Below are positions 1-32,879 of a stretch of 33,335 nucleotides of DNA, piece after piece (the first letter of the stretch is position 1; each line of letters starts with the position of its first letter). The notes beneath the pieces were generated by a model, which was not told the origin of the DNA, did no database searches, and worked only from the letters and a program-made list of their open reading frames with translations. A program made the position numbers and the translations under genes. The DNA comes from Candidatus Gastranaerophilales bacterium. GTDB taxonomy: Bacteria; Cyanobacteriota; Vampirovibrionia; Gastranaerophilales; Gastranaerophilaceae. The stretch is taken from NCBI GenBank assembly GCA_944325815.1, contig CALVBV010000013.1, positions 1-33,335 of the forward strand, in the 5' to 3' direction.

Positions 1-624
1 AGAGAAAAATTCGGTGTTCCTGCAACAGTAAAAACTATTGAATACGATCCGAACAGAAACGTAAGAATTTCATTAGTATTCTATGCAGACGGTGAAAAGA
101 GATATATTTTAACACCGGAAGGTTTGAATGTTGGTGATGTAATAGTAAGCGGCCCAGATGCAGCAATTCAGACAGGTAATGCACTTCCGCTGGATTTAAT
201 TCCATTAGGTACAATAGTTCACAACATAGAACTTTTACCTGGCAGAGGCGGAAAGATGGTTCGCTCAGCTGGTAATTTCGCTCAGGTTATGGCAAAAGAA
301 GGCAACTATGTAACTATAAAATTGCCTTCAGGCGAAATGAGAATGGTAAGAAAAGAATGTATGGCAACAATAGGAACATTGGGTAACGCCGAGTTCAAAA
401 ACTTATCAATCGGAAAAGCCGGCAGAAAAAGATATATGGGTATCAGACCGACAGTACGTGGTGTAACAATGAACCCATGTGATCACCCGCACGGTGGTGG
501 TGAAGGTAAAACCGGTCCCGGCGGACATCCTAAGACACCTTGGGGTAAACCTGCTCTTGGTTATAAGACAAGAAAACAAGGCAAAGCGTCTGATAAACTT
601 ATCGTAAGACGTAGGAAAAAGTAA
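1..624 (+). CDS. rplB: 50S ribosomal protein L2 (5' part outside window)
   Basis: The reading frame is open from base 1, so the gene starts before the window; 207 residues are present of a usual length of about 275. L2 binds 23S rRNA near the peptidyl-transferase centre and is needed for subunit joining. Visible hallmarks are IEYDPNR near the cut end, LPLRxIPxGT-like [16 protein letters not shown], the [11 protein letters not shown] block, and the C-terminal [14 protein letters not shown] loop that carries the conserved His. The TTG at 124 is an internal Leu codon, not a start. It is followed by a 100-bp spacer with a hairpin before rpsS, in the usual S10-operon order. Confidence 0.98.
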
Positions 625-642
625 TAAAATTCAGATAGGCGA

Positions 643-665
643 GGGTAAATTAATTATATTTACCC
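643..665 (+). promoter_or_regulatory. Intra-operon hairpin, rplB-rpsS spacer
   Basis: An 8-bp perfect stem (GGGTAAAT at 643-650, ATTTACCC at 658-665) with a 7-nt loop lies in the rplB-rpsS spacer. No T-tract follows, so it is not a convincing intrinsic terminator. It may be an mRNA processing or stability element, or a leftover of a repeat, because the same GGGTAAAT word forms part of the repeat unit at 7792-7912. Confidence 0.5.
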
Positions 666-724
666 CAGCTACTGGCAAAAAATATTTTTATAAACATTAA
701 TACTAATATACAAAGGAGAAATTA

Positions 725-1006
725 ATGGCACGTTCATTAAAAAAGGGCCCATACGTAGAAGAAGCTCTTCAAAAGAAAATTAACAAAATGAATGAAAATT
801 CAGAGAAGAAAGTTGTTAAGACTTGGTCAAGAGCATCCATGATAATTCCTGATATGTTGGGACATACAATAGCCGTACATAACGGAAAAACACACGTTCC
901 TGTATACGTAACGGAACAAATGATAGGTCACAAGCTGGGAGAATTTGCGCCGACCAGAATGTTTAGAGGACACGCAGGTTCTGATAAGACAGCAAAACGT
1001 AAATAG
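725..1006 (+). CDS. rpsS: 30S ribosomal protein S19
   Basis: A 93-residue protein of normal family length that starts [13 protein letters not shown], the S19 signature. It contains the conserved [23 protein letters not shown] block and ends in [13 protein letters not shown]19 sits in the head of the small subunit with S13 and contacts 16S rRNA. A strong ribosome binding site (AAAGGAGA, 712-719) precedes the ATG. It follows rplB and precedes rplV in canonical order. Confidence 0.98.
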
Positions 1007-1041
1007 ATGATTTTAAATAAACAAATATAAGGAAAATAAAA

Positions 1042-1380
1042 ATGGAAGCTAAAGCAAGACAAACAAACATAAAAATGACAGCAAGAAAACTTCGCAGAGT
1101 AATTAACGAAGTAAGAGGTAAGGCTGTTAATGAAGCTCTTGATATGTTACATTTTATGCCGTATTTTGCAGCCAGAGTGGTAGAAAAAAACTTAAAGGCA
1201 GCAGCAGCAAATGCTTTTGAAAAATCCGGCGTAAAATCAGATGCTTTAAAAGTTTCTGAAATATATGCAGATGAAAGTGTAACGTACAAAAGAGGTAAAC
1301 CAAGAGCTCAAGGTCGTATATACAGAAGACTCAAACGTACATCTCACCTCACAATAAAAGTTAGTGATGCAGTAAAATAG
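1042..1380 (+). CDS. rplV: 50S ribosomal protein L22
   Basis: A 112-residue L22, normal length. L22 is an early assembly protein whose long beta-hairpin lines the peptide exit tunnel and binds all 23S rRNA domains. The N-terminal half has the usual ARxTARKLRRVINEVRGK pattern and AAANAFEK. The C-terminal hairpin shows GKPRAQGRIYRRLKRTSHL, matching the family's PRAxGRAxxIxKRTSHI block. An AAGGA ribosome binding site lies just upstream. The 35-bp spacer to rpsS and 13-bp spacer to rpsC indicate one transcript. Confidence 0.98.
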   Translation: MEAKARQTNIKMTARKLRRVINEVRGKAVNEALDMLHFMPYFAARVVEKNLKAAAANAFEKSGVKSDALKVSEIYADESVTYKRGKPRAQGRIYRRLKRTSHLTIKVSDAVK

Positions 1381-1393
1381 AGGAAATAAGGAA

Positions 1394-2125
1394 ATGGGAC
1401 AAAAAACACATCCAACCGGATTTAGAGTAGGTATTATTAAACCTTGGGCAAGCACATGGTACGCAAGATTTAAAGAATACCGCACCTTCGTAAAAGAAGA
1501 TGATAAAATAAGAAAATTTATTAAAAAGAAATTATACGCAGCAGGTGTTGCAAATATCTTGATAGACAGAAAATCTCAGAGTTTGACGATAACTGTAGTA
1601 ACAGCAAAGCCGGGCATAGTCGTAGGCCGAGGTGGTCAAGGTATAGAAGAACTCAAAGCTGAAGTTTCAAAATATTTAGGAAAGCCAGTAATCATCAATG
1701 TGGTAGAAGTAGCAAGAATTGATGTCGATGCTTTATTGGTAGCCGAATCAGTAGCGCAGCAGCTGGAAAAACGTATACCATTCAGACGTACAATGAAACA
1801 GGCAATGCAAAGAACAATGCGTGCCGGTGCACAGGGTATAAAAATAATGGTATCCGGTCGTTTAGGCGGTGCTGAAATTGCAAGAAGCGAGTGGGCAAAA
1901 GAAGGAAGAATCCCTCTTCAAACACTAAGAGCCGATGTAGATTACGGTTTTACGGAAGCAGATACAATAATGGGTAAGATTGGTGTAAAAGTATGGATTT
2001 TCAAAGGTAATTTGATGCCCGGAGAAAAAGCAGATATGAACATCAAGTCTAAAAACTCAAAAGAATCTTCAGGCGAACGTTTTGGCGGCAGACGCGGGAA
2101 ACGCAGACCTGTAGAGACAAAATAA
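1394..2125 (+). CDS. rpsC: 30S ribosomal protein S3
   Basis: A 243-residue S3 starting MGQKTHPTGFRVGII, the family hallmark. The KH RNA-binding domain has the loop GRGGQGIEELKAEVSKYLGK. The C-terminal domain is recognised by RRTMKQAMQRTMRAGAQGIKIMVSGRLGGAEIARSEW (described here by its pattern, about residues 131-170). S3 forms part of the mRNA entry channel and has helicase activity with S4 and S5. A basic Arg/Gly-rich tail (SGERFGGRRGKRR) ends the protein, as is common. It lies 13 bp after rplV with an AAGGAAA ribosome binding site. Confidence 0.98.
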   Translation: MGQKTHPTGFRVGIIKPWASTWYARFKEYRTFVKEDDKIRKFIKKKLYAAGVANILIDRKSQSLTITVVTAKPGIVVGRGGQGIEELKAEVSKYLGKPVIINVVEVARIDVDALLVAESVAQQLEKRIPFRRTMKQAMQRTMRAGAQGIKIMVSGRLGGAEIARSEWAKEGRIPLQTLRADVDYGFTEADTIMGKIGVKVWIFKGNLMPGEKADMNIKSKNSKESSGERFGGRRGKRRPVETK

Positions 2126-2148
2126 GAAAATAACAGGAGAACAATATA

Positions 2149-2562
2149 ATGTTAATGCCAAAAAAGACAAAATACCGCAAAATGATGAAAGGAAGAATGA
2201 AAGGTACTGAAACAAGAGGTACAGAATTTGAATTTGGTCGTTATGCGTTAAAGGCTCTTGAACCCGGTTGGATAACAAGCCGTCAGATAGAAGCCGCAAG
2301 ACGTGCAATGACTCGTGAAATCAAACGTGGCGGTAACGTTTGGATAAAAATATTCCCGGATAAACCAATTACGGCAAAGCCGGCTGAAACCCGTATGGGC
2401 TCAGGTAAAGGTAATGTGGAATACTGGGTAGCAGTTGTAAAACCAAACAGAATTTTATTCGAACTTGACTATTTTGATAGAGCTGTAGCTATCAATGCTT
2501 TACAGCTGGCAGCACAAAAATTGCCTATTAAAGTAAAAGTTATAGAGAAAGAATCTGTATAA
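2149..2562 (+). CDS. rplP: 50S ribosomal protein L16
   Basis: A 137-residue L16 starting [19 protein letters not shown], the typical N-terminus. It includes [28 protein letters not shown] and the [23 protein letters not shown] block, where the conserved Arg of the RMGxGKG loop lies near the A-site tRNA. L16 organises the A-site region of the large subunit. The upstream AGGAGA site fits the first ATG; the in-frame ATG two codons later is less well placed. It follows rpsC by 23 bp. Confidence 0.98.
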
Positions 2563-2577
2563 TAAGGAAAAATAACA

Positions 2578-2781
2578 ATGAAATTAAGTGAAATGCGCGA
2601 AAAAACAGTTGATGAGTTAAAGCAATTTGTTGTTGAGTCAAAAAAACAACTACTAGACTGTAGAATAAAAAAATCAATGCATAAGTTAGAAAATACTGCA
2701 GAGATATCAAAAACAAAACGTTTAATAGCTCAAGCAAAAACTGTAATAACAGAAAAAGAAAACGAGGTAAAAAATGCCTAA
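2578..2781 (+). CDS. rpmC: 50S ribosomal protein L29
   Basis: A 67-residue two-helix protein with the L29 pattern MKLSEMREKTVDELKQFVVESKKQLLDCRIKKSMHKLENTAEI. L29 lies at the tunnel exit next to L23 and contributes to the docking site for trigger factor and SRP. An AAGGAAA ribosome binding site is upstream. Its 3' end overlaps the rpsQ start by 8 bp, which suggests translational coupling. Low sequence conservation is normal for this family; the position between rplP and rpsQ confirms it. Confidence 0.96.
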   Translation: MKLSEMREKTVDELKQFVVESKKQLLDCRIKKSMHKLENTAEISKTKRLIAQAKTVITEKENEVKNA

Positions 2782-3019
2782 GAAAGAAAAACAAGGTGTA
2801 GTTATAAGCGACAAAATGGATAAGACTGTTGTAGTAAAAGTTGCTTCATATAATCCGCACCCAAAGTATAAGAAAATTATAGAATCAAATAAAAACTACA
2901 AAGCTCATGATGAAAATAATGAATGCGGAATTGGTGATACAGTAAGAATTATTGAATCAAAACCGATTTCAGGCGACAAAAGATGGGTTGTAGAATCTAT
3001 CATAGAAAAAGCTAAGTAG
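2774..3019 (+). CDS. rpsQ: 30S ribosomal protein S17
   Basis: An 81-residue OB-fold protein. The N-terminus KKEKQGVVISDKMDKTVVVKV and the HPKYKKII and YKAHDENNECGIGDTVRIIESKPIS blocks are S17 signatures. S17 is a primary 16S rRNA binder in the platform/body. The ATG lies inside the end of rpmC, whose codons supply the GAGGTAAAA ribosome binding site (2764-2772). A 152-bp spacer with two hairpins follows before rplN, unusually long for this operon. Confidence 0.97.
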   Translation: MPKKEKQGVVISDKMDKTVVVKVASYNPHPKYKKIIESNKNYKAHDENNECGIGDTVRIIESKPISGDKRWVVESIIEKAK

Positions 3020-3087
3020 TCTGGAATGTGATTGAGTGACAAAGTGATTGAAATTTGTCAGTTATGGTTCACAAAATTGCAAAACAT

Positions 3088-3106
3088 CATTATTTTATAA
3101 ATAATG
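3088..3106 (+). promoter_or_regulatory. AT-rich hairpin in rpsQ-rplN spacer
   Basis: CATTATT (3088-3094) pairs with AATAATG (3100-3106) around a 5-nt loop. There is no T-tract after it, so its role is unknown. The same spacer holds a repeated GTGATTGA word (near 3029 and 3043) and a second, GC-rich hairpin at 3129-3148. Confidence 0.4.
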
Positions 3107-3124
3107 CGCTGTGAAAGAAAGAAT

Positions 3125-3150
3125 GTAGGTTGGGGTTTTCGCCCCAACAA
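3125..3150 (+). repeat. GTAGGTTGGG-type hairpin repeat, copy 1
   Basis: GTAGGTTGGGG / CCCCAAC forms a 7-bp GC-rich stem (3129-3135 with 3142-3148) around a TTTTCG loop, directly before the rplN ribosome binding site (AAAAGGAA near 3157). A related copy lies on the minus strand at 9171-9196 before rplF. In both cases the hairpin is sense with respect to the ribosomal transcript and sits before the next gene. It resembles short palindromic repeats starting GTAGGTTGGGT that are known as dispersed elements in many bacterial genomes; that link is from memory. Confidence 0.65.
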
Positions 3151-3171
3151 CAAATAAAAGGAAATAGAAAA

Positions 3172-3540
3172 ATGATACAACAAGAAACAAGACTGGTAGT
3201 AGCAGATAATACAGGTGCTAAAGAATTATTGGTTATCCGTGTTATGGGAAGCTCAAATAAGAAATTTGCGGCTGTAGGTGATGTTGTTGTTGCAACCGTA
3301 AAGGATGCAACTCCAAATATGACAGTAAAAAAATCTGAAGTTGTAAAAGCTGTTATCGTAAGAACAAAACACGATATCAAACGTGCAGACGGTTCAGTAA
3401 TCAGATTTGATGAAAATGCGGCTGTTATAATAAACAAAGATGGCAACCCGCGCGGAACCCGTGTTTTCGGGCCTGTAGCAAGGGAATTGAGAGACAAAAA
3501 CTTTATGAAGATTGTTTCTCTGGCACCGGAAGTTATCTAG
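3172..3540 (+). CDS. rplN: 50S ribosomal protein L14
   Basis: A 122-residue L14, exact family length when started at the ATG at 3172 ([19 protein letters not shown]). An upstream in-frame ATG at 3130 would add 14 residues encoded by the hairpin repeat and lacks a ribosome binding site, so it was rejected. Conserved blocks include ADNTGA, [27 protein letters not shown], and [31 protein letters not shown]14 forms the intersubunit bridge with h14 of 16S rRNA and is the contact site of the silencing factor RsfS. Confidence 0.98.
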
Positions 3541-3579
3541 TACGAATAATTCCAAATAAAAAGTAAATGGAGAATAAAA

Positions 3580-3915
3580 ATGGCAGACAATAAAAAAAGC
3601 TTGCATGTAAAAACCGGTGACAGAGTTATCGTCACAGCAGGCAAGGACAAAGGGAAAACTGGTAACATAAAGAAATCTATACCATCGGAATCAAAAGTCG
3701 TGGTAGAAGGTGTAAATATGATTACAAAAGCTACAAAAGCTAACCCTGCATACGGTATTCAAGGCGGATTAATCAAGAAGGAAGCACCGATTGATTCTTC
3801 AAACGTAATGATAGTATGCCCAAGCTGTGAAAAACCTACGAGAATTAAACATGCAGTAGTTGATGGAAAAAAAGTCCGCGTATGCAAAAAATGCGGTGAA
3901 CAATTAGATGTATAG
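3580..3915 (+). CDS. rplX: 50S ribosomal protein L24 with C-terminal zinc ribbon
   Basis: A 111-residue L24. The KOW motif is seen at about residues 12-40 (GDRVIVTAGKDKGKTGNI). L24 initiates large-subunit assembly by binding the 5' end of 23S rRNA. The C-terminus keeps a CPSC...CKKC zinc-ribbon pair (about residues 83-106), a form typical of Firmicutes-like L24 and not of the shorter cyanobacterial form. A GGAG ribosome binding site lies 10 bp upstream. The 39-bp gap to rplN fits co-transcription. Confidence 0.97.
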   Translation: MADNKKSLHVKTGDRVIVTAGKDKGKTGNIKKSIPSESKVVVEGVNMITKATKANPAYGIQGGLIKKEAPIDSSNVMIVCPSCEKPTRIKHAVVDGKKVRVCKKCGEQLDV

Positions 3916-3931
3916 TTAAGATTACAATATA

Positions 3932-3951
3932 TACGCGGAGTGAAGTGATTT
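3932..3951 (+). repeat. Possible remnant of the 151-bp spacer repeat
   Basis: TACGCGGAGTGAAGTGATTT in the rplX-rplE spacer resembles the sense-strand start of the element found after rpsH and rplF (TACGCCGGAGTGAAGTCC on the minus strand). It matches for about 16 bases with one gap. The short length leaves chance similarity possible. Confidence 0.35.
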
Positions 3952-3996
3952 AATAATCAGGTTTACTCCTACCGTATTAACAGAAGGAAAAGAAAA

Positions 3997-4557
3997 ATGA
4001 CTAGAACTAAAAATTTAAGAGCAAAATACAACGAAGAAGTTAAAGCAGCACTTAAAGAGAAATTTGGTTATAAAAACGATATGATGATACCAAAACTTCA
4101 TAAAATCGTTTTAAACATGGGTGTTGGCGAAGCTTCTCACAATTCAAAGATTGCTGATTCAATTCAAGCTCAGCTTACAAAAATAGCCGGTCAAAAGGCT
4201 GTTGTAACAAAGGCTAAAAAATCAATCGCTTCTTATAAATTAAGAGAAGGTATGCCGGTTGGTGCAATGGTTACTTTGCGCGGTGAAAGAATGTATGATT
4301 TCTTGCAAAAGTTAATTTGTGTAGTTCTTCCCCGTATTCGTGACTTTAGAGGAGTTTCTCCAAAGAGTTTTGATGGCAGAGGAAATTATACTTTAGGGTT
4401 GAAAGAACAATCTTTGTTCCCGGAAATCACGTATGAGGAAGTAGACTTGGTAAAAGGTATGAATGTCTCTGTTATCACAACTGCTCATACAGATGATGAA
4501 GCAAGAGAATTATTGAAATTATTAGGTATGCCATTTAAAGGCATGGGTAAAAACTAG
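3997..4557 (+). CDS. rplE: 50S ribosomal protein L5
   Basis: A 186-residue L5, slightly longer than the usual 179 or so. Signatures are [14 protein letters not shown], the TGQ-like [33 protein letters not shown] block, [33 protein letters not shown], and the C-terminal [22 protein letters not shown]5 binds 5S rRNA and contacts P-site tRNA and S13. AAGGAAAAG gives the ribosome binding site. The 81-bp spacer to rplX is longer than usual and holds a possible repeat remnant. Confidence 0.98.
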
Positions 4558-7791: not shown

Positions 7792-7912
7792 GATTTACCC
7801 CTAGGATTTACCCCTAGGATTTACCCCTAGGATTTACCCCTAGGATTTACCCCCTAGGATTTACCCCCTAGGATTTACCCCCTAGGATTTACCCCCTAGG
7901 ATTTACCCCTAG
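7792..7912 (-). repeat. Minisatellite, nine units of 13/14 bp, in the rplR 3' UTR
   Basis: Nine head-to-tail units; sense-strand unit CTAGGGG(G)TAAATC. Reading in plus coordinates, units 1-4 (7792-7843) are 13 bp, units 5-8 (7844-7899) are 14 bp with one extra C, and unit 9 (7900-7912) is 13 bp. Apart from the C4/C5 difference the units are identical. The first transcribed unit contains the rplR TAG stop codon, so the array starts exactly at the gene end and lies between stop and terminator. There are no spacers, so it is not a CRISPR. Confidence 0.97.
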
Positions 7913-8277
7913 AACATCAAGCCAGCTTCTCTTGCAGCGTCAGCAAGTGCAGCAACTCTACCGTGGTAGAGGAAGCCGCCTCTGTCGAATACAACACATT
8001 CAATGCCGGCTTTTTTAGCTTTTTTAGCGATAGCTTCACCGACAACTTTCGCAGCTTCGATGTTACCGCCGTGAGCTAATTTTTCTTTTAAGTCTTTGTC
8101 AACTGATGATGCTGAGCATATAGTTACGTGTTTTTCGTCATCAATTAACTGGGCATAAATATGTTTTGTGCTTCTATAAACAGCTAATCTCGGGAATTCA
8201 GAAGTCCCTGAAATTTTAACCCTGATAGCCTGATGTCTTTTTTGTACTTTTGGTTTTCTAATTTCTTGTTTAATCAT
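7909..8277 (-). CDS. rplR: 50S ribosomal protein L18
   Basis: A 122-residue L18 when started at the ATG at 8277 ([25 protein letters not shown]), matching family length; an upstream TTG at 8340 would add 21 residues with no support. Signatures are [20 protein letters not shown]-like [16 protein letters not shown], the [23 protein letters not shown] block, [27 protein letters not shown]18 binds 5S rRNA with L5. The stop codon is inside the first unit of the minisatellite. The next spc gene (rpsE) is missing here and lies near the right end of the window. Confidence 0.97.
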
Positions 8278-8564
8278 TTTTTCTTTAACCTTTCTTTCTA
8301 GTCGGTCTTCTGCCTCCAAGCTTAATCGTGTTGGCTTCAACCTTTCTTGTATTTACCCAAACTTTCTTGATGGTTAGTCAAGGGTTTATACGGGCTTTTT
8401 GTTATTTTACATTACTACGTGCGTAGCACCAAGCCGCCTGTGCAATCAAAGATTGCTTCACTCCATTCCGCTATCGCTTCATTTCGTAACGGCGGAATCG
8501 TAGAGTTTCGTCCTCAGTTTGCCGGCTCACCGCCGCCAAATTCGGACTTCACTCCGGCGTAGCA
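8278..8564 (-). other. rplF-rplR spacer (287 bp)
   Basis: This unusually long spacer within a ribosomal operon holds the 151-bp repeat (8415-8565) next to the rplF stop, then about 137 bp of unique sequence with a GGGTAAAT word (8351-8358, minus sense) and the rplR ribosome binding site. TTGACT is seen on the minus strand near 8380 but no well-spaced -10 box. No gene or RNA was recognised. Confidence 0.6.
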
Positions 8565-8565
8565 C
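8415..8565 (-). repeat. 151-bp direct repeat, copy after rplF
   Basis: It is identical to 9427-9577 except for one base (C at 8555, T at 9567), in the same orientation, offset 1,012 bp. It begins directly at the rplF stop codon in the sense direction. It carries inner stems GCAATC-AAA-GATTGC (8442-8456) and ATTCCGC...GCGGAAT (8465-8498), a GCCGGC palindrome, and the 9-bp word GCGTAGCAC near both ends (8421-8429, 8557-8565). It is clearly richer in GC than its surroundings and contains no plausible ORF. Confidence 0.96.
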
Positions 8566-9104
8566 TATTTTTTACCGGCTTTACCAGCTTTACGTCTGAT
8601 GTGTTCGCCTTCATACTTAACGCCTTTTCCTTTGTATACTTCCGGAGGACGTTTGCTTCTGATGAATGCTGCAACATCACCAACTGTTTGTTTGTTAGAA
8701 CCCTTAACACTGATTTTTGTGTTAGCTTCTACAGAAAGAGTAATTCCTGCAGGAGGTTCAATGATAACAGGGTGAGAGTAACCTAATGCCATATTAAGTT
8801 TTGTTCCTTCCATATTAGCACGGTAACCAACACCAACGATTTCAAGCTTCTTTTCAAACCCTTGGGAAACACCGTGAACAGCGTTTGCGATTAAGGTTCT
8901 GAATAAGCCGTGAAGAGCGTTAGTCTTTCTGTCATCAGAGTTTGGTTCTACAATGATGTGATTGTCTTGAACAGACACTTTTATTTCATCTCTAAAAGTA
9001 ACTGATTCAGTCCCTTTTGGGCCTTTTGCAGTTATAACATTTCCATCTATTTTAATTTCTACGCCTGATGGAATTTCGATAGGCTTTTTACCAATTCTTG
9101 ACAT
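8565..9104 (-). CDS. rplF: 50S ribosomal protein L6
   Basis: A 179-residue L6, exact family length when started at the ATG at 9104 (MSRIGKKPIEIPSGVEIKI), which has an AAAGGAGA ribosome binding site; 16 upstream in-frame codons were rejected. The protein has two alpha/beta domains. The C-terminal signature RSKRPPEVYKGKGVKYEGEHIRRKAGKAGKK is seen, with GVGYRANMEG and NKQxVGxxAAxIR. L6 lies near the sarcin-ricin loop. It is flanked on both sides by near-identical 151-bp direct repeats. Confidence 0.98.
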   Translation of the reverse strand: MSRIGKKPIEIPSGVEIKIDGNVITAKGPKGTESVTFRDEIKVSVQDNHIIVEPNSDDRKTNALHGLFRTLIANAVHGVSQGFEKKLEIVGVGYRANMEGTKLNMALGYSHPVIIEPPAGITLSVEANTKISVKGSNKQTVGDVAAFIRSKRPPEVYKGKGVKYEGEHIRRKAGKAGKK

Positions 9105-9170
9105 ATTATTTTCTCCTTTTTGTTTATGGGCTTTTCTGTCAATTGAACCCATTGTGTGTTTTAATTAGTT

Positions 9171-9196
9171 ATTGTTGGGCTGTGGACCCAACCTAC
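9171..9196 (-). repeat. GTAGGTTGGG-type hairpin repeat, copy 2
   Basis: On the minus strand GTAGGTTGGG-TCCACAG-CCCAAC forms a 6-bp stem (9174-9179 with 9187-9192). The flanks and stem match copy 1 at 3125-3150, with a different loop. It precedes rplF, as copy 1 precedes rplN, in the sense orientation. Confidence 0.65.
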
Positions 9197-9208
9197 TATT
9201 TCTGATAA

Positions 9209-9242
9209 CTCACCGCCGCTAAATTCTGACTTCACACCGGCG
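9209..9242 (-). repeat. Diverged partial copy of the 151-bp repeat
   Basis: CTCACCGCCGCTAAATTC followed by TGACTTCACACCGGCG matches the end of the 151-bp element (CTCACCGCCGCCAAATTCGG...) with about three differences. It shows that the element, or this part of it, is repeated independently of the two long copies. Confidence 0.75.
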
Positions 9243-9254
9243 ACTGGTAGTCTC

Positions 9255-9332
9255 ACATTTGAGGTTGACCTGGAGTTTAAAATCCATCCTGTCGGTTTAC
9301 CGTTGTCAACCGACCAAATGTCTACGTGCGTA
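9255..9332 (-). repeat. 78-bp element, copy A (105-bp period)
   Basis: It matches copy B (9360-9437) with about three base differences. It has imperfect terminal inverted repeats: ACATTTG-A-GGTTGAC at one end and GTCAACC-GAC-CAAATGT at the other, about 35 bp apart, followed by CTACGTGCGTA. It could fold into one long hairpin, like a miniature inverted-repeat element. Confidence 0.85.
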
Positions 9333-9359
9333 ATGTTTTGACATAAGACCTGTAGTTTT

Positions 9360-9437
9360 ACATTTGAGGTTGACCTGGAGTTTAAAATCCATCTTGTCGT
9401 TTAACCGTTGTCAACCGACCAAATGTCTACGTGCGTA
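9360..9437 (-). repeat. 78-bp element, copy B (105-bp period)
   Basis: The second copy of the element at 9255-9332. Its CTACGTGCGTA end overlaps the start of the 151-bp repeat at 9427, so that junction sequence is shared by both repeat families. Confidence 0.85.
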
Positions 9438-9577
9438 GCACCAAGCCGCCTGTGCAATCAAAGATTGCTTCACTCCATTCCGCTATCGCTTCATTTCGTA
9501 ACGGCGGAATCGTAGAGTTTCGTCCTCAGTTTGCCGGCTCACCGCCGCCAAATTCGGACTTCACTCTGGCGTAGCAC
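9427..9577 (-). repeat. 151-bp direct repeat, copy after rpsH
   Basis: Pairs with 8415-8565 (one mismatch in 151). It abuts the rpsH stop codon exactly as the other copy abuts the rplF stop. GCGTAGCAC recurs near its ends (9433-9441 and 9569-9577). Confidence 0.96.
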
Positions 9578-9973
9578 CTACCAGACGTAGCAGAGGATTT
9601 CACCGCCGAGGTTTTCTTTTCTGGCCTTGCGGTCTGTGAGTAACCCTTTGCTAGTTGAAACGATTGCAATACCGAGTCCGCCAAGTACCTGAGGAAGGTT
9701 CTTAGCTTTGCAGTAGCTTCTTAAGCCCGGTTTTGAGATTCTTTTTAGGTTTGTGATAACCGGTTTTTTTGCTTCGTCGTACTTAAGATCAATCACAAGT
9801 GTTTTGAAGTGACCGTCTACTTTTTCAGAGTAATCAGTAATAAAACCTTCAGATTTTAATAATTTAGCCAAAGCTACTTTAAGCTTAGAAGAAGGCATTT
9901 CTACTGACGGATGTGAAACAGCATTAGCGTTTCTGATTCTTGTTAGCATATCTGCTATCGGATCTGTGTTCAT
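9578..9973 (-). CDS. rpsH: 30S ribosomal protein S8
   Basis: A 131-residue S8, normal length. It starts [19 protein letters not shown] (family hallmark) and has the C-terminal [36 protein letters not shown] block, where STSKGLxT is the signature. S8 is a primary 16S rRNA binder and in E. coli represses the spc operon by binding its mRNA. Here it opens its own transcription unit, with a 355-bp leader region upstream and AAAAGGAAA as ribosome binding site. Confidence 0.98.
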
Positions 9974-11711: not shown

Positions 11712-12368
11712 CTATTTTAAAAATCGTGAGATTTCAGACTGAATGTAATTAGCTTTGGTAATATATTTTGACAGTTGAATGTACTTGTCTCCGCCTTCTC
11801 CGTAAGGCGTTTGGAGTGTCATAAGCTCATCTACGCTCTTGTTAATATTTTCAAGCTTACCTAATGATTTGCGTATTTCAAGCGCCTGAGAGAATCGTTT
11901 CGGAAGTTTTGAAAGTATAAGACCACCCAGCAAGTCTAAACTTTTCCTAATGCCGGAATACTTGGTTTTTAGCCTGTGGGAAACTTTATTGAAGATTCCG
12001 CCGGATATTTTGGCCGAAAGACTAGTATTGTTATAGATTTCGGAAAGTTCTCGGTATTCTTCTATTAACTGTTTTTGGCGGATAAAAAGTATCTCTGCAT
12101 TTTTAAAATCATGAATGTCTTTTGCACTTTGGATTTGTGCTTCAAGAGATTTTAACTCTTCTTCTGTCCGCGTGAGTTTATATTCCAGCTTAAACAGTTC
12201 ATCTTTGACATCTTTATATGCTTCTTGCTGGAGGATATTAGAATCATAATCATTTAAGCGCCTCAGAGGCTCGGTTACGTTTCCGTGCAATGATAAATTC
12301 TCAGGCTGTAGAAAAAAGTTCTCTTTATTTGAATATAGATTTTCTTCATTAAAAAAATCTCTGCTCAT
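11712..12368 (-). CDS. Coiled-coil protein of unknown function
   Basis: A 218-residue soluble protein with no signal peptide. Residues about 45-115 are a heptad-rich coiled coil (KDVKDELFKLEYKLTRTEEE, LKSLEAQIQ, RQKQLIEEYRELSEIY). The C-terminal half is basic and probably helical. No family was recognised. It lies 15 bp after the TPR gene that overlaps csrA and 36 bp before der, so it is probably in one transcript with them. A role linked to the CsrA/FliW pair is only a guess from position. Confidence 0.7.
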   Translation of the reverse strand: MSRDFFNEENLYSNKENFFLQPENLSLHGNVTEPLRRLNDYDSNILQQEAYKDVKDELFKLEYKLTRTEEELKSLEAQIQSAKDIHDFKNAEILFIRQKQLIEEYRELSEIYNNTSLSAKISGGIFNKVSHRLKTKYSGIRKSLDLLGGLILSKLPKRFSQALEIRKSLGKLENINKSVDELMTLQTPYGEGGDKYIQLSKYITKANYIQSEISRFLK

Positions 12369-12383
12369 AACTTGATTATACTA

Positions 12384-12953
12384 TTAATCCCTATTTTCTT
12401 CAATTTTTGCTTTTATCATTTGTGCAGGATAATAATCAGGCAATATCCGCAGGCATTCGCGTATTGAATCGTACGCTTTATCTTCATCGTGAACCTCTTG
12501 ATAGTACTTTGCAAGCATGAAGTGTAATTCCGGGTCATTATAATGAATTTTTTTTGACTTTTCCATATAGCGCAGTGATGCGGAATACAGCCTGTTTTCA
12601 AACATAACGCGGGCTGTGAACTTGTAACACTCCTGATTAATCGTAGATAGAAAATCTAATCCACCGAGAAGCTGTTCTATATAATCAAGTTTTTCATTTT
12701 TTATTAAAAAATCTAAGTCTATTTCTAAAAAATTTCTAATCTGAAAATATGTCGGATAATAATGTACAATCCCTTCTAATATGGAACACAATACGAATCC
12801 CCAGTGCGACCGCGGTGAGTCAAGCCTTGAGAAAATTTCTTTTGCGCCGGCAAGGTCATTATCTAATACACACAAATAGGCATGTTCCAGTGAACCGGGT
12901 TTTATCTCAAGGATGTCTTTACCAAAAAAATAATATTGTTTAAGGTTTGACAT
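12384..12953 (-). CDS. TPR-like protein coupled to csrA
   Basis: A 189-residue cytoplasmic protein; no signal peptide. TPR-like helical pairs are visible at about 24-50 (HAYLCVLDNDLAGAKEIFSRL) and in the C-terminus (YSASLRYMEKSKKIHYNDPE, LHFMLAKYYQEVHDEDKAYDSIRECLRILPDY). The ATG lies inside the end of csrA (14-bp overlap), so translation is probably coupled. This suggests a protein-binding partner in the same process. The exact function is unknown. Confidence 0.8.
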   Translation of the reverse strand: MSNLKQYYFFGKDILEIKPGSLEHAYLCVLDNDLAGAKEIFSRLDSPRSHWGFVLCSILEGIVHYYPTYFQIRNFLEIDLDFLIKNEKLDYIEQLLGGLDFLSTINQECYKFTARVMFENRLYSASLRYMEKSKKIHYNDPELHFMLAKYYQEVHDEDKAYDSIRECLRILPDYYPAQMIKAKIEENRD

Positions 12954-13278
12954 CTTTTTTATTTATTCTTAAAGATTTCTTTTTTTCGTCTACGACAATT
13001 TCGTCATCCTTGCCCGGCGTGGTTTCCAGTTTGTCGTTCAATGCCGTGTGACCGGACTTTATCATATCAGATACGGAGTCTACTGCAGACACATTAGTAT
13101 TTTTTCCTATAAGGTTTGCAAGTTTTATTTGATAATAAATTTCTTCACGATAAATTTTGACATCTCTGTCTGCTTGTATAGCAACTTTGCAAATGCCATT
13201 TCTTGCTTCGACAATAGTGATTTCAATATTGTCGTTTATCATTATTTTTTGACCGTTTTTTCTAGTAATTACGAGCAT
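12940..13278 (-). CDS. csrA: Carbon storage regulator CsrA with C-terminal extension
   Basis: A 112-residue protein. Residues 1-60 are a CsrA domain (MLVITRKNGQKIMINDNIEITIVE...KVAIQADRDVKIYREEIY); the conserved Arg of YREE is the RNA-binding residue in known CsrA. CsrA dimers bind GGA motifs near ribosome binding sites and block or stabilise mRNAs. Usual length is 60-75, so about 50 extra residues follow (an acidic and then Lys-rich tail ending KKKSLRINKKDVKP). It sits 15 bp after fliW; its end overlaps the next gene. AAGGAT provides both ribosome binding site and a GGA motif, so self-repression is possible. Confidence 0.95.
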   Translation of the reverse strand: MLVITRKNGQKIMINDNIEITIVEARNGICKVAIQADRDVKIYREEIYYQIKLANLIGKNTNVSAVDSVSDMIKSGHTALNDKLETTPGKDDEIVVDEKKKSLRINKKDVKP

Positions 13279-13293
13279 TTTTATCCTTAAAAC

Positions 13294-13725
13294 TTAGCTG
13301 TTTTTAAACATCGGGAAGCTTATGTCGTATCCCGAGCCTGATAATACAACTTGGCCTGCAAGCTGATTATCTACATTAAATATTAGCGGGGCTAATAAAT
13401 TTATCGTAGTTCCATGAGGGTTATCCTGCGGTATTGAGGTAATATTCATTACCAATACACTTTCAACTCTCGTTATTTTTAGTTTGTCTACTACATTATC
13501 AGGAAGATCTATTGTATAATCATAATTCAGGGCTGATACGGATATTATCGGAAAAGCCAGGGACGGATCTTCGACTGACTGAAGCCATTTAAATAACGTT
13601 TCTTTATTTGGATCCAATATTACAAATTTTTTAAGATTATCAAATCCAATAATAGGTAAAACAAAATTAAAAATTCTGTTTTCCTCTATTTCTATTTCTC
13701 CAAATCTAACAGTATTTAACTTCAT
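13294..13725 (-). CDS. fliW: Flagellar assembly factor / CsrA antagonist FliW
   Basis: A 143-residue FliW. Hallmarks: TVRFGEIEIEENRIFNF at the start, FKWLQSVEDPSLAFPI, and TTINLLAPLIFNVDNQLAGQVVL. In Bacillus and Campylobacter FliW binds CsrA and relieves its repression of flagellin; free flagellin competes for FliW. The pair fliW-csrA is the classic arrangement. The purine-rich AAAGG directly touches the ATG, an unusually short spacing that makes an AAAGGAUG site like the CsrA consensus. No flagellin or flagellar gene lies in the window. Confidence 0.94.
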   Translation of the reverse strand: MKLNTVRFGEIEIEENRIFNFVLPIIGFDNLKKFVILDPNKETLFKWLQSVEDPSLAFPIISVSALNYDYTIDLPDNVVDKLKITRVESVLVMNITSIPQDNPHGTTINLLAPLIFNVDNQLAGQVVLSGSGYDISFPMFKNS

Positions 13726-13734
13726 CCTTTATTA

Positions 13735-14472
13735 CTAAAACCCCAATTGATTAGTTAACAATGTTTGTATTACCTGCGGATTTAAGGAATTGTTATTCCC
13801 GTTTCCTAATAACATGTTAAGTGTGTTATTGTTTTGTCCGCCCATTAATAAAGAAAGTTCTGTATTGTTGTTGAATAAATTCCCGAGTCCGGCATTTTGC
13901 AAAACCCGAAGAGCGTTCACGATTTCTTCATTAGTAGGCTGGGTATTCATACTTGAAAAATCTTTATATTCTTTAAATTCGCCGGGGGCAATCTCTTTAC
14001 CCCTGTTCATTTCGCGCATAATATTTTCAATTTTTTGTTTTTCATAATCACTGCGTGCTTCTTTTGAAAATCCGCTTCCGAATTTTCTCTGGATAAATGC
14101 ATCCAATTCTGTTGCATCATCAACCTTATCATTGCAGTTATCCGGGTCTTCTAAGCAGGTTTTCCCTTTTTGTGCATATCGGCCGATTTGACTGTCGGGA
14201 GATAGAGAAATTGCTTTATCATAATTTGCAAGAGCATCGTCTTTCTTGCCGATTTGGGCTGATGTCATTGCTAAATAATAATATGCAACAGCATTAGACG
14301 GATCTTTTTTAATTATTTTATTCAATGATACATAACATTGAGAATAGTTGCCGGCTTTATACATTCTTATTGCAGAGGCCAGGTCTGTGTTTGTTGTTGT
14401 TTTGCCGTTTGCGAGGTTCATTGTTGATGAACATATTACTATACTTAATAATAAAAGAATATACTTTTTCAT
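13735..14472 (-). CDS. Exported TPR protein with Asn-rich C-terminus
   Basis: A 245-residue protein with a signal peptide (residues 1-23, MKKYILLLLSIVICSSTMNLANG). Two to three TPRs follow (SAIRMYKAGNYSQCYVSLNK, AVAYYYLAMTSAQIGKKDDALANYDKAISLSPDS). The C-terminal third is low-complexity and rich in Asn, Gln and Leu (NTLNMLLGNGNNNSLNPQ). It lies 9 bp before fliW and probably heads the same operon. The function is unknown; envelope location is inferred from the signal peptide. Confidence 0.85.
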   Translation of the reverse strand: MKKYILLLLSIVICSSTMNLANGKTTTNTDLASAIRMYKAGNYSQCYVSLNKIIKKDPSNAVAYYYLAMTSAQIGKKDDALANYDKAISLSPDSQIGRYAQKGKTCLEDPDNCNDKVDDATELDAFIQRKFGSGFSKEARSDYEKQKIENIMREMNRGKEIAPGEFKEYKDFSSMNTQPTNEEIVNALRVLQNAGLGNLFNNNTELSLLMGGQNNNTLNMLLGNGNNNSLNPQVIQTLLTNQLGF

Positions 14473-31092: not shown

Positions 31093-32430
31093 TTATTCTT
31101 TTAAGAAAGTCTCATAATTTCTTGCAAGCAGGTGTGTTCTGACTTGATTAATCAAATCCAGAGCAACCCCGACCATAATGATTAGAGAAGTAGCACCAAT
31201 TCCCTGCAGTGTAGTAATCTTTGTGATATAACTTGCAAACGCAGGTACAAGTGCAATAATTCCTAATCCCATTGCCCCAATGAAAGTGGTTTTAGAAAGA
31301 ATTTTGTCTAAAGCCTCTGCCGTTGGTCTGCCGGGTTTTACACCGGGGATTGAAGAACCGTATTTTTTTAGGTTGTCCGCAATTTCTTTGGGCTGCATAT
31401 TAGGCATAATTGAAGCATAAAAGAATGTTAATGCGACAATCATTACAAAATATATTGCGTAATAAGTTATCCCGCTTGGGTTAAAGATTTTGTTCAGAAC
31501 AAGAACCACATCCTGCACCCATCCTGCCGGAAGGTTCGCCTGACCTACAAGGCTCAATATCGTTGACGGGAACAGTAATATTGCAACAGCAAAGATAATC
31601 GGCATTACACCGCCCGGATTAAGTTTGAACGGAATAAATGTATTAACTCCGCCGTAAACTTTATTTCCAACCTGTCTTTTCGGGTTTACAATTATTACTT
31701 TTCTTATAGCTTCCTGCATTATTACGATGAATACCATTGTAATAAAGAATATAGTAAGTAAAAGTATTAATCCCCACATAAGCGCAGAGTCGTTTGAGAC
31801 CATCTGCCAGGTTCTTGAAGAGTATAGCGGAATACCTGATATAATACCTACAAAGATAATCAGAGAACCGCCGTTTCCAATACCCTTTTCGGTTATTAAT
31901 TCCGACATCCACATTACAAGAACAGAACCTGCTGTAAGTGTAATCACAGAAGATATATAAAACATAATATGATTAACACCTGCAGTAATTGCGCCTGGAA
32001 GGTGTGCCATATAACCCATAAAGATTATTCCTTGGAAAACAGCAAGAACAACAGTAAAAATTCTTGTGTATTGAGATATTTTACGCCTTCCGGCTTCTCC
32101 GTCTTCTTTTTGTAATTTTTCCAATGCGGGAATTATTACTGCCATCAATTGCATGATAATTGATGATGTAATGTATGGCCCGATACCCAGTGCAAATATA
32201 GAAACTTTTCCAAGAGCACCGCCTGAAAACAAATCTAAGAATCCTAGAATATTGTTTCCGGAAGCTATTCTTGAAAATATTTCATTATTTATGCCGTAAA
32301 CTGGCAGATGGATTCCGAATCTGAAAAGTACAAGCATAAGAAAAGTAAAGATTAGCTTTTCTTTCAAGCCTGACGCGTTCCACATTGACATCAAATCTGC
32401 CGTGGTAGGCATTCTCATTCCGCCTGTCAT
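31093..32430 (-). CDS. secY: Protein translocase subunit SecY
   Basis: A 445-residue integral membrane protein with about 10 hydrophobic segments, the channel of the Sec translocon. Family marks: FRFGIHLPVYGI near the start, FSGGALGKVSIFALGIGPYITSSIIMQL (plug region and TM2 by pattern), QLEKLQKEDGEAGRRKISQYTRIFTV-like segment, and PGxRPGxPTAEALDKILSK near residue 360. The ATG overlaps the rplO stop by 1 bp (TAATG), so they are translationally coupled. A terminator follows. Confidence 0.98.
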   Translation of the reverse strand: MTGGMRMPTTADLMSMWNASGLKEKLIFTFLMLVLFRFGIHLPVYGINNEIFSRIASGNNILGFLDLFSGGALGKVSIFALGIGPYITSSIIMQLMAVIIPALEKLQKEDGEAGRRKISQYTRIFTVVLAVFQGIIFMGYMAHLPGAITAGVNHIMFYISSVITLTAGSVLVMWMSELITEKGIGNGGSLIIFVGIISGIPLYSSRTWQMVSNDSALMWGLILLLTIFFITMVFIVIMQEAIRKVIIVNPKRQVGNKVYGGVNTFIPFKLNPGGVMPIIFAVAILLFPSTILSLVGQANLPAGWVQDVVLVLNKIFNPSGITYYAIYFVMIVALTFFYASIMPNMQPKEIADNLKKYGSSIPGVKPGRPTAEALDKILSKTTFIGAMGLGIIALVPAFASYITKITTLQGIGATSLIIMVGVALDLINQVRTHLLARNYETFLKE

Positions 32431-32879
32431 TATACTAATTCAACCTTTCCGCCTGCTGCTTCAATTTTTTCTTTTGCTGATGGAGTTACATAATCAGCTT
32501 TTACGGTAATAGCTTTTTTGATTTCTCCGTTACCTAAAATTCTTAAGCCATCGCAAGACGGATGAGCTTTTCTAATACCTTTCAATGACTCTAAAGAAAT
32601 TTCAGTGATTTCTAAATCAGCAAGTCTGCCAACATTGATTTCAGCATAATTACGTTTATTGATTACCTGGAATCCTTTTAGTTTAGGCAGTCTTCTGTAA
32701 GAAGGCATTTGACCGCCTTCAAAACCTCTTTTAGAAGCTCTGCCGGAACGTTGTCCTTCACCGTTATGACCGCGGCAGGATGTTTTACCGTGTCCTGAAG
32801 AACGTCCTCTGCCGACTCTTTTGGATTTGCCTGTTGCACCTTCAGCAGGTCTTAAATCTTCTAGTGTTATATTTGTCAT
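32430..32879 (-). CDS. rplO: 50S ribosomal protein L15
   Basis: A 149-residue L15, normal length. The N-terminal Gly/Arg-rich tail (KRVGRGRSSGHGKTSCRGHNGEGQRSG) and FEGGQMPSYRRLPKLKGF are signatures; it ends VTPSAKEKIEAAGGKVELV. L15 links 23S rRNA domains and is a late assembly protein. The tail has a Cys (TSCRGH) where many relatives have a Thr/Ala-rich run. It is 21 bp after rpmD with a weak AGGAAT ribosome binding site, and coupled to secY. Confidence 0.98.
   Translation of the reverse strand: MTNITLEDLRPAEGATGKSKRVGRGRSSGHGKTSCRGHNGEGQRSGRASKRGFEGGQMPSYRRLPKLKGFQVINKRNYAEINVGRLADLEITEISLESLKGIRKAHPSCDGLRILGNGEIKKAITVKADYVTPSAKEKIEAAGGKVELV

Follow-up and report, generated by a model that had tools for sequence, protein, structure and literature searches.

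A candidate flagellin–FliW–CsrA homeostasis switch in a Gastranaerophilales bacterium

Described FliW–CsrA systems and the fliW–csrA locus

The closest described systems are Hag–FliW–CsrA of Bacillus subtilis, whose CsrA reportedly has 74 residues, the CsrA–FliW pair of Campylobacter jejuni and the CsrA–FliW complex of Geobacillus thermodenitrificans (PDB 5DMB). For CsrA, passages of PMC7652899 describe a geometry in which a hairpin site tethers the dimer and a second site lies at the Shine-Dalgarno sequence, together with the SELEX consensus RUACARGGAUGU. For C. jejuni, sections of PMC7829508 describe a CsrA of 75 residues in which positions 51 and 55 are needed for FliW binding and the last 15 residues are dispensable for it.

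The stretch of DNA analysed here (the window, 33,335 nucleotides) is contig CALVBV010000013.1 (C13) of a MAG of 1.84 Mb that is 99.8% complete (GCA_944325815.1, Candidatus Gastranaerophilales bacterium). On its minus strand follow, in order, glutathione synthetase, TPR245, fliW, csrA, TPR189, a 218-residue coiled-coil-like gene and der, with the following features:

13735..14472, minus strand: TPR245, a 245-residue TPR protein with a signal-peptide-like N terminus (TPR_2, E 1.5e-8), conserved upstream of fliW
13723..13730, minus strand: AAAGGATG, with its ATG starting fliW; suggested as a CsrA site, not conserved
13294..13725, minus strand: fliW, 143 residues, CsrA antagonist (PF02623, E 1.7e-34, 118.7 bits against a curated cut-off of 25)
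13284..13288, minus strand: AAGGA, the csrA Shine-Dalgarno sequence, with AAGGA upstream of csrA in 57/59 relatives
12940..13278, minus strand: csrA, 112 residues (PF02599 over residues 1-52, E 4.9e-20, 71.7 bits against a curated cut-off of 27)
13114..13278, minus strand: CsrA residues 1-55, the RNA-binding core, containing R44 as well as I51 and N55, the positions of FliW contact
13057..13113, minus strand: CsrA residues 56-74, a C-terminal extension as in FliW-partnered CsrA, aligning with 5DMB chain D; predicted helix 44-74
12943..13056, minus strand: CsrA residues 75-112, lineage-specific tail, acidic and then basic at its end (DDEIVV...SLRINKK), predicted to be disordered
12940..12953, minus strand: overlap of the csrA end and the TPR189 start, 14 bases
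12384..12953, minus strand: TPR189, a 189-residue TPR protein; conserved neighbour, independent of flagella
11712..12368, minus strand: 218-residue coiled-coil-like protein, adjoining the cassette in the window's genus only

The sequence-only reading had described a 112-residue CsrA, fliW beside csrA, a TPR gene overlapping the csrA end, and AAAGGATG where fliW begins, all of which we confirm. It had further taken FliW and CsrA for a pair of the flagellin-controlling kind, and this is borne out by the Pfam scores, by matches to 5DMB and by co-occurrence with flagellin. FliW matches the FliW chain of 5DMB over residues 2-140 (E 5e-18) and CsrA matches over residues 2-74, where, unlike in the Geobacillus protein, the chain continues into a tail that has no counterpart. 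Both proteins score below the NCBIfam equivalog cut-offs (CsrA, 54.2 against 70.1 bits for TIGR00202 and 60.9 against 73 for NF002469; FliW, 124 against 208 for NF009798 and 118.2 against 130 for NF009793). This CsrA is the single match in the whole genome. Across the family table, R44, implicated in RNA binding, as well as I or V at position 51 and N55, is present in 70/70 rows, which include genome G030 twice and leave out G055. The same holds for position 51 (59/59) and N55 (59/59) in the 59 named relatives, which are long-tailed matches of 61-88% identity from a scan of named genomes with the window CsrA; three short Paenibacillus matches came out of that scan besides. N55, V/I51 and an extension past the E. 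coli length, the last judged from sequence and the predicted helix 44-74, are the features of a FliW-antagonised CsrA.

The locus resembles that of B. subtilis in the adjacency and order of fliW and csrA and in the retained N55. The short spacing of the two genes is compatible with the translational coupling that part of PMC6529632 reports, and the flagellin leaders (see below) likewise have two GGA sites, one at the Shine-Dalgarno sequence, as passages of PMC7652899 describe. Unlike in B. subtilis, the pair has no adjoining flagellin gene, the genomes of the window's genus hold 6 to 11 flagellin matches each, and CsrA is longer. With C. jejuni CsrA it shares the V/I51 and N55 contacts and a C terminus that runs beyond the length of E. 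coli CsrA, as far as sections of PMC7829508 describe these, and differs in its length and in a further, predicted disordered tail.

Flagellin genes and CsrA-type sites in their leaders

Scanning the open reading frames of the window by eye brought up no evident flagellar gene, and the earlier statement that none is in view is true within the window; it reflects the limits of the window, however, since the search for flagellar genes elsewhere in the genome, which had been proposed alongside it, found nine Flagellin_N matches over the cut-off as well as FlhA. The nine matches lie on eight contigs other than the fliW–csrA contig. The matches to the FlhA/FHIPEP family in this genome (G000) are at C22:3682-5673, C85:153-2129 and C32:13647-14681, in frames of 705, 703 and 500 residues; three such matches point to an additional export apparatus or else to contamination (2.14%).

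Among 191 genomes of the family (Gastranaerophilales-type MAGs), csrA was found in 70, fliW in 72 and flagellin in 77, and every genome bearing csrA or fliW has flagellin, while the 114 flagellin-negative genomes contain neither gene. At the genus level the tallies are 18 for csrA, 18 for fliW and 19 for flagellin, of 41 genera. Five of the 77 flagellin-bearing genomes are without both genes (G004, G019, G051, G084 and G163), two of them being only 74-75% complete. The absence of csrA from all 114 flagellin-negative genomes makes CsrA look like a dedicated flagellar regulator, and the lineage offers a clean comparison, its genomes retaining csrA only while they retain flagellin. Flagellin numbers vary: G084 (L239), with no fliW or csrA match, has one flagellin where its csrA-bearing congeners have five or six, and G092 (L070 and others) has at least 20 matches (20 of 30 candidates scored), and several of these lie in short frames of ~160-190 residues.

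We then consider the 88 flagellin leaders, 48 of which belong to loci that searches returned or that lay within fetched regions, and the other 40 of which were taken from listed matches before their own leaders had been seen; one spurious, non-flagellin leader (L039) was removed before counting (88 of 89 kept). Leaders of 261 ORFs of at least 200 residues with a Shine-Dalgarno-like stretch served as controls, and motifs were counted from -80 to -19, so that the 18 nt next to the start codon lie outside the counts. ACARGGAWG, which derives from the SELEX consensus, occurs in 14/88 flagellin leaders and 0/261 controls (shuffled-set mean 0.1). The motif CANGGANG, formulated after the leaders had been seen and counted over related leaders that are not independent, occurs in 30/88 compared with 1/261 (shuffles: mean 0.55, maximum 4), and each of seven scrambled motifs appears 0-1 times in either set. 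The GGA of the 30 CANGGANG sites lies at -29 to -45 from the ATG, with a Shine-Dalgarno GGA 18-34 nt further downstream in 29/30, so that 29 leaders hold two sites, one of them at the Shine-Dalgarno sequence; 58/88 leaders are without the strict motif. Within the genome of the window, CANGGANG is present in two of the eight leaders read:

G000:C89, flagellin leader: CACGGACG, hairpin
G000:C3, flagellin leader: CAAGGATG

Stems around all 30 sites average 3.0 pairs compared with 1.18, above each of 2000 re-pairings, with stems of at least three pairs at 12/30 sites only; the sites thus show a tendency to lie in hairpin loops. In 11 chosen hairpins, both sides have changed in 7/9 pairs and the covariation score exceeds all 500 shuffles; this test leans towards structure because the hairpins were selected among the 12 whose stems have three or more pairs, whereas the test on all 30 does not. 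The strict motif is missing from all 10 leaders of genus g40 and from 6/7 of g25, and a CARGGAWG site or hairpin is found in 8/11 leaders of g6 compared with 0/10 of g40. Judged by its sequence, the arrangement in the flagellin leaders matches the hairpin and Shine-Dalgarno geometry reported for CsrA.

The FliW-contact residues of CsrA, taken together with the CsrA-type leader sites, lead us to the known flagellin–FliW–CsrA homeostasis switch in a flagellated Gastranaerophilales bacterium, a reading to which we assign a probability of roughly 0.87 and in which binding, repression and partner switching are what we infer. The analysis itself shows what the two genes are, that the contact residues and the leader sites are there, that the genes co-occur with flagellin and that their absence is clean. 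In such a switch, dimeric CsrA would bind the flagellin mRNA leader both at an ANGGAN site in a hairpin loop and at the GGA of the Shine-Dalgarno sequence, blocking translation. FliW, whose gene lies directly upstream of csrA and is probably co-transcribed with it, would bind CsrA at the helix bearing I51 and N55, leading to release of the mRNA, and flagellin that is not exported would in turn bind FliW. CsrA would be a dedicated flagellar regulator in this lineage, lost along with the flagellins, and its 38-residue tail a disordered, lineage-specific appendage. The switch would thereby be placed in a non-photosynthetic sister lineage of cyanobacteria, in a gut bacterium, and through the leader sites many flagellin genes become targets that can be tested directly. 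A literature search on Gastranaerophilales-type organisms with CsrA or FliW gave no linking paper among the matches listed, and one on CsrA, FliW and cyanobacteria gave no title on the subject among the matches listed.

Alternative readings and the neighbouring genes

Membership in the CsrA family is what would favour a CsrA that regulates carbon storage globally in this bacterium, FliW being one antagonist among several; given that csrA is missing from the 114 flagellin-negative genomes and that a single control leader carries CANGGANG, we regard this as very improbable, and CsrA in the lineage looks like a flagellar rather than a carbon regulator. Hardly more probable is direct repression of fliW translation by CsrA at AAAGGAUG, as the sequence-only reading had proposed, which would create a feedback loop. 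AAAGGATG does stand at the fliW start of the window, and GG immediately precedes the fliW ATG in 9/59 relatives compared with 3/261 control genes, the latter being biased against GG at this position because they were chosen for a Shine-Dalgarno sequence further upstream. The exact site, however, recurs at the fliW start in only 1/59 relatives and ANGGATG in 3/59, and within the genus GGATG is found there in the window and one other genome only (the start in G162 is not resolved). The 8-mer itself occurs three times in the window where 1.8 are expected, which is chance level (three or more in 32/100 shuffles), 188/200 shuffles fold at least as well as the window's fliW leader, and 63 fliW leaders contain neither CARGGAWG nor a CsrA-type hairpin upstream. 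The proposal consequently finds no footing in conservation, frequency or folding. With the TPR245 stop 9 nt upstream of fliW, it is more likely that fliW translation depends on coupling to TPR245. In csrA leaders, CARGGAWG is found in 3/69 and a hairpin in 5/69; the csrA Shine-Dalgarno context (window 13284-13288; csrA leaders L243-L301) is very constant.

Conserved gene order is the argument for treating TPR245, FliW, CsrA and TPR189 as one functional regulatory module. TPR189 adjoins csrA in 67/69 loci and TPR245 lies upstream of fliW in 67/69, the remaining two reaching a contig edge in each case; the order TPR245–fliW–csrA–TPR189 is unbroken across 18 genera at every locus where the contig extends far enough, and fliW–csrA–TPR189 recurs in 18/18 loci from elsewhere in the class, in different families and orders (18 of 22 non-family genomes with FliW). 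Against this, TPR189 is found in 180/191 family genomes, and at 22 sites lacking fliW–csrA (20 in flagellin-negative genomes of our choosing, the other two in G021 and G084, whose genus is mostly flagellated) TPR245 lies directly against TPR189, with a gap of at most 20 nt in 20 and of 51 and 84 nt in two, and with no csrA or fliW remnant found between them. As the order is kept in 18/18 loci outside the family, the presence of the pair looks ancestral and its absence a clean loss, and as the TPR genes remain adjacent where fliW, csrA and flagellin are missing, they have a flagella-independent function. We therefore consider a single module very unlikely, if slightly less so than the two preceding alternatives, and the earlier suggestion of a new regulatory module with the TPR and coiled-coil neighbours falls with the occurrence of these genes in genomes without fliW, csrA and flagellin. 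The coiled-coil gene was rejected as a module member: it is present in 154/191 genomes and lies near csrA in 8/8 loci of the genus, and no other locus read has it there. The reading of TPR189 as a chaperone of the T3SS type (NCBIfam SctY, E 1.9e-4, well under the cut-off) was likewise rejected, the gene being present in flagellin-less genomes.

The C-terminal tail of CsrA

Within the flagellin–FliW–CsrA switch, the tail is the only odd part of an otherwise ordinary arrangement. The earlier figure of a 50-residue tail stands as regards a real extension and has to be corrected in its length: 57 residues follow N55, and since the first ~19 can be aligned with the extension at the C terminus of CsrA in its 5DMB complex with FliW, the truly extra part amounts to ~38 residues (75-112). 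The comparison with relatives that had been suggested finds the tail there as well, so that its absence from relatives, named beforehand as grounds for refutation, does not apply. CsrA has 111-115 residues in all nine genomes of the window's genus, 111-119 in the sister genera g28, g29 and g40 (bar one row cut by a contig end), 107-116 across the 59 named relatives and 78-96 in the remaining genera; lengths of 131 and 151 (two rows) were script start errors and are excluded, and 106 (one row) reflects a contig end. In 26 CsrA sequences the mean column identity is 0.94 over residues 1-55, 0.74 over 56-75 and 0.42 over 76-90, and climbs again to 0.61 in an acidic patch (91-98) and 0.67 in a basic patch (99-108). 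AlphaFold predicts a single helix for residues 44-74, and a folded tail domain was rejected on block means of pLDDT of 41-46 from residue 81 on and a pTM of 0.43. The tail beyond residue 74 is thus real, has kept its length within the genus as well as in three sister genera, is conserved in its end motif and is predicted to be disordered.

By analogy with C. jejuni, the 38-residue tail may be dispensable for FliW binding, and it would most likely act as a tether or a mild aid to RNA affinity. It is very improbable that its end forms a short linear motif docking a second partner, perhaps the cytoplasmic TPR189; if it did, the flagellin switch would have an extra input without equivalent in B. 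subtilis or C. jejuni. By loose patterns of our own devising, two kinds of end motif cap variable linkers across the family, a basic, strand-like ...hxhxKK in the window's genus and several others and a helix-like F..xKh in yet others.

Elsewhere, the window returned zero matches to Rfam, and an S10/spc-like ribosomal cluster, recognised by eye, lies in three pieces on both strands (124-4557, plus; 7909-9973, minus; 31093-32879, minus) with unrelated genes between them.
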